From positions 1-64,000 of the forward strand of contig JOSY01000074.1 in assembly GCA_000746765.1 (NCBI GenBank): a DNA stretch of 64,000 bases, read 5' to 3'. Position 1 is the stretch's first letter. Every line of letters starts with the position of its first letter. Below are positions 48,793-51,536 of the stretch, piece by piece. The stretch comes from Marine Group I thaumarchaeote SCGC AAA799-D11. GTDB taxonomy: Archaea > Thermoproteota > Nitrososphaeria > Nitrososphaerales > Nitrosopumilaceae. The position numbers and the translations under genes were made by a program. Under the pieces are notes generated by a model that did not search any database, had not been told where the DNA came from, and was given only the letters and a program-made list of their open reading frames with translations.

Positions 48793-48874
48793 ATTGAAAT
48801 ACAAAACTAAATGGTGGCATTATTAACGTTTAACAAAAGAAAGGATGAATAAAAAGAAGAAAGGCGTGAATTAG

Positions 48875-49585
48875 TTGAAAGATAATTTTACTGAAGAAGA
48901 AAAAAGAGGATTCTACAAGGCAATTTATTCAAGGAGGGATGTAAGATCTCATTTTACATCAAGACCCATAGAAGATGAAGTACTCTCGAAAATTCTTCAT
49001 GCAGCACATCATGCACCATCAGTAGGATTTTCCCAGCCATGGAATTTCATTTTGATAAAAGATATTGAGACAAAAAAGAAAATCAAAGCATCATTTGAGG
49101 AAGAGAAAAATCGCTCATCACAATTAGTAGAAGAGCCAAAAAGATCAAAGTATCTTTCATTCAAACTAGAAGGAATCTTAGAATCTCCAGTGAATTTATG
49201 CGTAACATATGATCCATCAAAATTTGGTCCATTTGTGATTGGTAGATCAAGTATACCTGAAGCAGGATTATACAGTGTATGTTGTGCAATTCAAAATTTG
49301 TGGTTATCAGCAAGAACAGAAGGAATTGGTCTTGGATGGGTAAGCATTCTATCAAATGAAACATTAAAAGAAAATCTAGAATTGCCAGAACATGTTGTTC
49401 CTGTAGCGTATTTGTGTTTAGGGTATGTAGATGATTTTGCTGAAAAACCAGATCTTGAAACTGCTGGTTGGTTACCAAGACTTGATCTAAAAGATGTTGT
49501 ATATTTTGAAAAATGGAATGATCAAGAAAATGAAAGTTGGGAAAGTATTCAAAAAATGATCAAAGAAAATCTTGACTATGCTTAA
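48875..49585 (+). CDS. bluB: 5,6-dimethylbenzimidazole synthase-like nitroreductase
   Basis: The 236-aa flavoprotein has YSRRDVRSHFTSRPI (about 14-28), the BluB signature, and HHAPSVGFSQPWNFIL for FMN and the lid. BluB breaks down FMNH2 to form the lower ligand of vitamin B12. That matches a lineage known to make cobalamin with this ligand. It starts with TTG at 48875. Confidence 0.88.
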   Translation: MKDNFTEEEKRGFYKAIYSRRDVRSHFTSRPIEDEVLSKILHAAHHAPSVGFSQPWNFILIKDIETKKKIKASFEEEKNRSSQLVEEPKRSKYLSFKLEGILESPVNLCVTYDPSKFGPFVIGRSSIPEAGLYSVCCAIQNLWLSARTEGIGLGWVSILSNETLKENLELPEHVVPVAYLCLGYVDDFAEKPDLETAGWLPRLDLKDVVYFEKWNDQENESWESIQKMIKENLDYA

Positions 49586-49625
49586 ATAATTAAGAATGTT
49601 TTTTTTTGCTGGGCTTGTGGCGCAG

Positions 49626-49643
49626 AGTCAATTTGACGCGAAA
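49626..49643 (+). other. Probable tRNA intron (position 15/16, D-loop)
   Basis: Removing agtcaatttgacgcgaaa restores a normal D arm. It starts and ends inside three-base bulges flanking CGC/GCG, as the archaeal splicing endonuclease requires in relaxed form. The position is non-canonical (usual is 37/38). Confidence 0.65.
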
Positions 49644-49669
49644 CATGGATAGCGTGGTAGCCTCCTAAG

Positions 49670-50788
49670 TTACAGGTCGAGGGATCGAAGCCCTCCAAGC
49701 CCGCTTTCACTGTGTGTCCGAAACATGTCTTTGGACGATAACTTTTCCGTTTGGCAGAGTACCGATGTAACGCCAACCCCTAATGATACACTGCTCTGCT
49801 TCATCTGATGTGACGACTCGTTGCTCGATTTTGTTTTCCCGTTGTCAAGTACACTTAACAACTCTTGGACTTGAGCAAGTTGTTGGGCCGTCATTGTCTC
49901 AATTTTTTCCTTAACTTCTTCTTTTTTTGCTTCTATTGGGTCTTCTTGAATTATTTCAAGATCAAGTAATTCTTCACTTCTTTTGAAGGCATCACGCATT
50001 TCTGTTATCAGCGATTGAGGAAGTATTCCTTTGTTTGTTGTATAGACTGCTTCAATTGAGCCTTTGTGTCCCATGAAGAACACTCTAAAGTCATGTGCAA
50101 TCTTACCTCTTGATTCTGCAATGAGTAATTGCGTATCAAAGAATCGTCTTAGCACGTACGGTCTCCAATTGAATCGAGGTCTCATTGTGTTTCTTACTTC
50201 TCTTCTTATCACACCAGTAACTAGGAATTTTTTCTCAGTATTGTTTCCACGTCCATACTTGTATCTATGGTTAGGTGCAATCACGGCATCGTCTGGGCCA
50301 AGTGATTTTCCTGACATTATCCTTTCGTTAAGATATGCAAGAAGTTTCTTACTACCTTCGTTTGTGATGAAGGTAAAGTATTCGTTATCTTTCTTTGATA
50401 GTTCACTTCTTACTACAATCCTTGCTGGTTTGTGTGTGAATATAGCAAGTCCTTGAACAATAGCCAAGTCAGGCAAGTCTCTTATACTCAGTCCGTCGGA
50501 AGCATCAACGTTTCCTAAAACCTCTGGCCTTAGACCTGCTTTACCAATCAAAGCCATTATTGCCCCTGCTCTTGTATCTGCCCTGTTGAATAGTTCTGCT
50601 AACTCTTGTGGCTCAGGAATTTTTTCATCTTTTAATGTTGGTGTAGATGTAGGATTTCGTATTTTCAGTTTTCGTAATATTTTTACATCAAAATGATTTA
50701 ACCAAGACTTGACAGCAGTGATTGTTACACTGATGTAACTTGGTGCGTGGTTTTCGTTCTGGATGACGGATATATTCTGTCTCCTCAC
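49670..50788 (-). CDS. Tyrosine-family integrase, C-terminal end encoded in tRNA-Arg; N-terminus broken
   Basis: In the 372-aa frame the catalytic set of a tyrosine recombinase is visible: Arg87 (AGLRPE), Y-V-L-R at 211-214 in the place of HxxR, His241 (FMGHKG) and nucleophile Tyr249 (AVYTTNKG). A long coiled-coil tail (about 265-310) follows. The last codons read into the T arm of tRNA-Arg, as in archaeal tRNA-integrating elements. The first 17 residues look out of frame; the likely true N-terminus is in another frame upstream (50688-50924). Probably inactive unless the frame is recovered. Confidence 0.85.
   Translation of the reverse strand: MRRQNISVIQNENHAPSYISVTITAVKSWLNHFDVKILRKLKIRNPTSTPTLKDEKIPEPQELAELFNRADTRAGAIMALIGKAGLRPEVLGNVDASDGLSIRDLPDLAIVQGLAIFTHKPARIVVRSELSKKDNEYFTFITNEGSKKLLAYLNERIMSGKSLGPDDAVIAPNHRYKYGRGNNTEKKFLVTGVIRREVRNTMRPRFNWRPYVLRRFFDTQLLIAESRGKIAHDFRVFFMGHKGSIEAVYTTNKGILPQSLITEMRDAFKRSEELLDLEIIQEDPIEAKKEEVKEKIETMTAQQLAQVQELLSVLDNGKTKSSNESSHQMKQSSVSLGVGVTSVLCQTEKLSSKDMFRTHSESGLGGLRSLDL
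49692..49703. repeat. Left attachment repeat (attL core) in tRNA-Arg 3' end
   Basis: The 12-mer cctccaagcccg is the 3' end of the tRNA-Arg gene and is present again at 51525-51536 in the same orientation, bounding the integrase element. Confidence 0.75.
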
Positions 50789-50924
50789 GAAAAATATCTT
50801 TGTCTTCTACAGGTAGAACATCTTTATCATCTTCATCTGTCAAATCTAATCTTGATTTAAAATACCAGATGAAAAGATTATCGTTTTGTTTTCTTAGTTT
50901 TTCCTTTTTTGGCTTTATCCCTTT
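50688..50924 (-). pseudogene. Out-of-frame N-terminal segment of the integrase
   Basis: Another minus-strand frame, open from 50924, reads an integrase-like N-terminal part (phrases LFIWYFKSRLDLTDEDD, then EETEYIRHPERKPRTK) and stops at 50688-50690. It runs toward the point where the main frame begins to look right (YISVTITAVKSWL). One inserted or lost base near 50735-50790 would join them into a protein of about 415 aa. Confidence 0.5.
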
Positions 50925-51402
50925 TTACTTCAGCATCAATTTCTTTATGTATATCTTCAGTTTTCCATCGAAAAATATCTCTGTCTCTTGTGTCTTTTGG
51001 AGGCAAAATATTTGGATTATTTTCTTTTTCATGTTCATACTTTTCAAGTTCAGAAAAATACTCAACATGACTTCTATATGCTGAAACAAAATTTTCATCT
51101 ACAAATGTAGCAAATTTTTTATGCTGATATACATCATCTTTTTCTTTACAAATAGATGACATTTTGTTATAATGCGCACGTTTTTCTTCATCAATATATT
51201 CAGAGGTTGATGGGTCATTGGCAAGAAAATCGTAGGTACTAGCAGCAGTATTATAGCAATCTATTGCATGAATTTCCTTACCTTTCTTTTCATACTCTTG
51301 TGCTTCAGAAAAGAAATATTTTCCACCTTCTTCTACTGATTTAATCGATTCTTGTTGTTGTCTTTTCAATACTCGCCTTCTATCTTTAGTATCATCTCCC
51401 AT
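50878..51402 (-). CDS. Element cargo protein, helical, TPR/MIT-like
   Basis: The 174-aa soluble protein is highly charged and helical. Residues about 20-58 (EEGGKYFFSEAQEYEKKGK...HAIDCYNTAASTYDFL) have the pattern of a TPR or MIT-type helical hairpin. The C-terminus is a Lys-rich tail that could bind nucleic acid. It is the only cargo gene of the integrated element and lies upstream of the integrase; its 3' end overlaps the out-of-frame integrase segment. No known function. Confidence 0.65.
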   Translation of the reverse strand: MGDDTKDRRRVLKRQQQESIKSVEEGGKYFFSEAQEYEKKGKEIHAIDCYNTAASTYDFLANDPSTSEYIDEEKRAHYNKMSSICKEKDDVYQHKKFATFVDENFVSAYRSHVEYFSELEKYEHEKENNPNILPPKDTRDRDIFRWKTEDIHKEIDAEVKRDKAKKGKTKKTKR

Positions 51403-51524
51403 AACACACCTCTCTAGTAATTACTTTGTAGTGAGAACTTAAATAGAGAAAACCGTTTGGTGTTAAAATTAACATTTTGTTAAAAAATAGGTGGTGTGTT
51501 TCGTACACCCAGACCGTACGGACT

Positions 51525-51536
51525 CCTCCAAGCCCG
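51525..51536. repeat. Right attachment repeat (attR core)
   Basis: Exact copy of cctccaagcccg from the tRNA-Arg 3' end, in direct orientation, marking the distal end of the element. Host genes resume with the FMN reductase at 51587. Confidence 0.75.

Follow-up and report, generated by a model that had tools for sequence, protein, structure and literature searches.

A probable 1.83-kb remnant of a thaumarchaeal integrated element, with a predicted bulge-helix-bulge intron in its integrase gene

The window, a 64,000-nt stretch of contig JOSY01000074.1 from Marine Group I thaumarchaeote SCGC AAA799-D11, very probably contains an 1833-bp remnant of a cryptic integrated element, whose integrase belongs to a clade with a predicted bulge-helix-bulge (BHB) intron. 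According to our reconstruction, site-specific integration by a tyrosine recombinase would have placed the element at the 3' end of tRNA-Arg(CCT), leaving the tRNA whole, and the integrase would have lost its N-terminal domain, so that the element is probably unable to move by itself. The mRNA of this integrase clade is predicted to carry an intron of 20–35 nt. The host tRNA-splicing endonuclease would cut within the two 3-nt bulges on either side of a 4-bp helix; once an RNA ligase had joined the exons, the catalytic domain and a conserved C-terminal module would be read in one frame. Unspliced, the open reading frame would end early or, as in the window, continue into the tRNA. Both the splicing and the immobility of the element are deduced from genome sequences. 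The features of the locus are listed in Table 1.

Table 1. Features of the integrated element and its target site in the window
Feature	Position	Strand	Basis
tRNA-Arg(CCT) with D-region intron, integration target left whole	49611..49703	+	ARAGORN after removal of ~15–27 nt; conserved in relatives
Left att core CCTCCAAGCCCG (tRNA 3' end)	49692..49703		Direct repeat D8
Right att core CCTCCAAGCCCG	51525..51536		Direct repeat D8 and empty-site comparison
Gene for a tyrosine recombinase without its N-terminal domain; product of 350 aa, ending ...GTLPNGKVIVQRHVSDTQ, predicted after splicing	49707..50788	-	Family homology
Unspliced 372-aa ORF, runs into the tRNA	49670..50788	-	ORF list
Second exon, C-terminal module QRVVT..GW.YIGTLPNGKVI, -1 relative to the catalytic ORF	49707..49834	-	Alignment with relatives
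Predicted BHB intron of 29 nt within the integrase gene, cleaved after the 2nd nt of each bulge	49835..49863	-	Phase-free search, splicing prediction, covariance model
Whole bulge-helix-bulge structure	49832..49871	-	Covariance model R1 (window excluded from training): 40.9 bits, E 1.4e-10
Orphan gene (cargo, 174 aa); helical throughout, with a three-helix bundle that may be MIT-like	50878..51402	-	Homology searches, single-sequence structure model

The element is bounded by two exact 12-nt direct repeats, whose copies are 1833 nt apart; 14 of 15 positions match if the repeat is extended to 15 nt. The left copy coincides with the 3' end of a tRNA-Arg. Occupancy of the site was assessed in 29 same-genus loci holding the FMN reductase gene that lies on the right-hand side. 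In 26 of these, tRNA-Arg(CCT) directly adjoins the FMN reductase gene with nothing between them, and a nitroreductase gene is nearly always found to the left of the tRNA. The exceptions are one locus at a contig end (L013) and two loci without a tRNA beside the FMN reductase gene (L026 and L033). In the closest relative (G020), the tRNA 3' end runs straight into the sequence found after the right repeat of the window. The 26 empty loci, together with this junction, thus identify the 1833 bp as a real insertion. Judging from these comparisons, it is specific to the source genome (1.36 Mb, 77 contigs, 87% complete) among the genomes sampled. The preliminary description had proposed a tRNA-integrated element of about 1.83 kb between 12-base repeats of the tRNA-Arg 3' end and had called for an occupancy comparison; the exact repeats, their spacing and the empty sites agree with that proposal. 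The arrangement is not fixed among the relatives, which supports an accessory element. A sub-threshold Rfam match to the C/D box RNA sR52 (25.6 bits; gathering threshold 50) is located just upstream of the nitroreductase gene, at 48838–48896.

The target tRNA was not called by ARAGORN on the native sequence, and its score of 24.4 bits is below the Rfam tRNA gathering threshold of 29, owing to an intron in the D-region. Deletion of about 15–27 nt of the D-arm/D-loop was sufficient for ARAGORN to call tRNA-Arg(CCT). Accordingly, the integration target itself is an intron-containing tRNA.

Only two genes are present between the repeats, an integrase-like gene and a cargo gene, as described earlier; no genes for replication, packaging or helper dependence are encoded in the insert. 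The integrase shares 49–55% identity with six relatives in the alignment and up to 64% with others in thaumarchaeal genomes. The contigs encoding its relatives belong to Nitrosopumilus, Nitrosotalea, and other Thaumarchaeota; no relatives were found among viral contigs, and an order-wide repeat of the search added no genomes. A direct-repeat search around the relatives, made to obtain element sizes, gave one candidate. The catalytic motifs of the window integrase are kept and its catalytic part is open. Its homology to the relatives starts only near 50755, and its match to the family model (428 positions) at position 95; of the complete relatives, most start at positions 6–26. About 90 N-terminal positions of the family are therefore absent and the integrase is not complete. 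A search for the N-terminus in another frame detected no homology. Since most of the N-terminal domain is gone, independent mobility of the element is doubtful. A 36-nt repeat (78%) links the stretch just before the integrase homology (50770–50805) with the end of the cargo gene (50951–50986). It may have been left by a second cargo copy or by the deletion in which the integrase lost its N-terminus; a second copy is not claimed here, because the protein similarity was matched by 20 of 1000 shuffles.

Most likely, the insert is what remains of a thaumarchaeal cryptic integrated element and can no longer move. Such elements (Krupovic 2019, PMC6563490) share with the window an integrase, a short att repeat at a tRNA 3' end, the use of intron-containing tRNAs as targets, empty sites in relatives, and the absence of viral or conjugation genes. 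The smallest one reported is 2.6 kb in size, as compared to 1.83 kb in the window, where the integrase is truncated and accompanied by one orphan gene only. We use the term 'remnant' because an incomplete integrase does not make an intact member of this group. By itself, the element is ordinary apart from its small size. SSV-type (suicidal) integrases (PMC8371274) are likewise tRNA-targeting tyrosine recombinases with an att site adjoining the gene; in contrast to them, the att core of the window lies outside the spliced gene, so that integration does not split it.

Three readings of the element had been offered previously. That of a relic is the best supported, given the missing N-terminal domain of the integrase. 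The second, a live satellite moved in trans by the integrase of another element, is rather improbable in our view. Truncated integrases might act in trans or with a partner, and both the intact att repeats and the open catalytic part of the integrase fit this scenario. On the other hand, the insert has no helper, packaging or replication gene, the source genome (87% complete) has no second close integrase, and no further copy of the cargo was detected anywhere searched, with homologues lacking in 250 family genomes, viral contigs, phages, and plasmids. The same lack of a cargo homologue applies to the third reading, a moron-type cassette, in favour of which nothing was found.

The integrase family possesses a conserved C-terminal module, QRVVT..EAEQLI..GW.FVGTLPNGKVI, which is in frame with the catalytic domain in some relatives but in the -1 frame in the window. 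More than 30 related integrase loci show the same out-of-frame arrangement. After removal of duplicates, the module was placed at -1 in 19 loci (the window included), at +1 in 4, and in frame in 18; it was absent from 47. Among the shifted loci, codon changes have a synonymous share of 0.34 in the module frame versus 0.09 and 0.08 in the other two frames, and the third codon position of the module frame varies most. No ATG, GTG or TTG for an independent start of the module is available in 15 of 19 shifted loci. A tree built from 82 integrases places every shifted row except for the weak L162 in one clade of 36 rows (support 100/100): the module is at -1 in 17 of them, at +1 in 4 and in frame in 3, and 12 have no module. 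This coding signature and the clade-wide persistence indicate that the out-of-frame state is old and maintained. The predicted spliced integrase of the window would extend from a GTG at 50788 to a C-terminus three bases outside the att core; the tRNA-encoded tail is present only in the unspliced ORF. The earlier statement that the integrase reads into the tRNA is thus correct for the unspliced frame, but not for the conserved C-terminus, which lies in the -1 frame and ends just outside the repeat. The apparent reading into the tRNA is a by-product of a probable intron.

The junction between the two frames has a common sequence pattern. The motif CKGBAANNY follows the phase of the module rather than that of the upstream frame in 23 of 24 shifted or broken loci, and none of the 23 in-frame rows has it; its background is 1.8% per window, and being derived partly from the same loci, it is no independent test. 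The fourth base of the motif and the third base of a GTN/ATG codon upstream form a pair in all 22 loci (G-C in 16, C-G in 3, A-U in 3). Folding gave a hairpin (mean z -2.3) with a 4-bp lower helix, a 3-nt bulge on the 5' strand (ANA), and an inner helix that reaches 9 bp at most. A pairing considered initially, with a bulged A and G12-C21, was replaced by the inner pair G14-C21. Beyond the lower helix, three bases (ANN) make up a second bulge, closed by a covarying G-C or A-U pair. Two 3-nt bulges are hence located on opposite strands between an inner and an outer helix, the latter usually consisting of only one or two pairs, of which only one is conserved.

This architecture corresponds to the substrate of the splicing endonuclease, whose recognition site is a 4-bp helix with a 3-nt bulge on either side (PMC7714728); cleavage takes place after the second of the three bulge residues (PMC2738675). 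Two genes for this enzyme (PF01974) are present in the source genome. The implied introns are 29, 20, 32 or 35 nt long in the -1 loci and 28 or 22 nt long in the +1 loci. These lengths fit the frame need of each locus, which a single frameshift mechanism would not serve in both directions. Across the 22 loci, 96.6% of cells in the 4-bp central helix are paired, with double changes in two pairs, and 97.7% in the 22-locus blocks. For 14 pairs over 12 loci of equal length, 92.9% of cells are paired and 8 pairs display compensatory double changes; the covariation score is 0.524 versus 0.233 in shuffles (0 of 500) and collapses in slid controls. The central helix of the window has three of four pairs and one A.G mismatch, common to L118 and L039, and was missed by the strict BHB definition.

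The first extraction of these structures was phase-bound, and the search was therefore repeated without the phase condition. A canonical BHB was found in 19 of 23 shifted loci, compared with 10% in shuffles, and the best structure restores the frame in all 19. The loci missed were the three with one A.G mismatch, including the window, and the outlier L162. At the junction of L036, L038, and L213, the module frame is interrupted by TAA codons, which fall within the predicted intron.

A covariance model (R1) was trained on 12 loci with the window left out. It recovered the window structure (Table 1), which was also the top match over the whole source genome (E 3e-9). Among 40 integrase loci, the model matched the shifted ones, none with the module in frame, and, weakly, three module-less relatives. 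The latter (L206, L217, and L123) appear to contain weak hairpin remnants, with scores of 22, 19, and 13 bits, respectively. In a search of 250 family genomes, R1 revealed 12 previously unseen loci among those fetched and parsed, all of them in integrase genes with the module downstream. Removal of the predicted intron yields one continuous ORF in all 12 and is required for it in 11. The remaining one, L259 (G185:C8:135721-135761), has a 30-nt intron and reads through whether spliced or unspliced; it is a possible step in intron loss or gain. One weak match (22 bits, E 0.0035; L237:1501-1540, corresponding to G000:C6:94500-94539) is situated at the start of a rimI-like acetyltransferase gene. 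Its removal restores no frame and the match is probably due to chance.

Programmed ribosomal frameshifting, which would join the catalytic ORF to the module during translation, was our initial hypothesis. It would account for the predominance of -1 loci (19 of 23 shifted loci) and for a module frame that is coding yet has no start codon, and -1 frameshifting is known in archaea from fucA1 (PMC8211752). We now regard it as quite unlikely and have dropped it. The junction lacks an X XXY YYZ slippery heptamer and is followed by no stable structure; instead, the conserved hairpin covers the junction segment itself. The +1 loci have the same motif as the -1 loci, phased with the module rather than with the upstream frame, and frameshifting accounts neither for these loci nor for the TAA codons of the three loci named above.

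It is more improbable still that the shifted loci are simply pseudogenes or assembly errors in which the module has been broken off. Integrated elements often decay, further stops occur in several copies, and broken or partial integrase genes are common in the clade (L042, L108, and L230; the module of L042 is in frame behind a stop), so that some loci may indeed be decaying. Nevertheless, the arrangement recurs in many independent assemblies and persists throughout the clade, with coding selection in the shifted frame and compensatory base changes. Folded hairpins serve as substrates of integron integrases, and the hairpin described here lies close to att within a tyrosine recombinase gene, but its interpretation as a DNA or RNA element of the recombination site is very improbable given the U-G wobble common at one position (9 of 22), which favours RNA, the BHB geometry, the restoration of the frame by its removal in both -1 and +1 loci, and its absence where the module is in frame.

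The closest parallel to the predicted integrase intron is that in the pre-mRNA of cbf5, a housekeeping gene, in crenarchaea (Watanabe 2002; Yokobori 2009, PMC2738675). In both cases, a BHB-like structure breaks a protein-coding gene, the frame is regained once it is taken out, and intron-less relatives exist; the first cbf5 examples were also confused with frameshifting. The integrase differs in being a tyrosine recombinase of a mobile element from another phylum, with an intron of only 20–35 nt near the 3' end and with splicing that is predicted only. Another reported BHB intron in an archaeal message, that of HVO_1309 in Haloferax volcanii (PMC7714728), is processed by the splicing endonuclease but is located in the 5' UTR, whereas the integrase intron would separate coding exons. 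Within the open-access literature in PMC, these two were the BHB introns found for archaeal messages, and texts combining BHB with integrases concerned tRNA only; earlier reports elsewhere are possible.

The integrases of mobile elements in ammonia-oxidising archaea are thus predicted, on the basis of comparative analysis, to represent a second, independent family of archaeal pre-mRNA introns beside cbf5. If this is true, messages undergo tRNA-type splicing more often than supposed, and such cases hide behind 'frameshifted' genes; labelling such integrases as pseudogenes calls for caution. The introns recur across genera, with intron-less relatives for comparison, and offer a system for testing intron gain and loss as well as the regulation of recombination; new cases were found at once by the covariance model. 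Tentatively, the intron could also function as a switch, the unspliced message giving a short integrase and the spliced one an integrase with the module, which would amount to alternative splicing in archaeal mobile elements. The host tRNA-splicing endonuclease would then influence integration versus excision of elements residing in tRNA genes, which often bear introns themselves.

The cargo gene gave no match to Pfam, PHROGs or PDB sequences and nothing significant in NCBIfam or PADLOC. Searches of 400 class genomes resulted in marginal matches only, the best of which (E 0.008), to a 77-aa zinc-ribbon-like protein, was judged to be due to chance. This small protein was observed at L065, L067, L072, and L073 and is conserved in the genus; its marginal similarity to the cargo is probably fortuitous. 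The single-sequence model of the cargo is all-helical (pLDDT 72). Among solved folds, that of the MIT domain of Sulfolobus Vps4/CdvC fits best (2w2u; probability 0.94, TM by target 0.82, rmsd 1.9 A, but E 3), and the likeness covers about 74 residues forming a three-helix bundle. Comparison with the MIT profile of the host CdvC was weak (hhalign E 0.012 in one comparison), and Pfam MIT (PF04212) was not matched at E 10. Assignment to MIT domain proteins was rejected for these reasons and the likeness is kept as a fold hint only. The cargo also differs from Vps4/CdvC in having no AAA ATPase. Based on the model, its fold is possibly MIT-like, with the three-helix bundle as the shared element.
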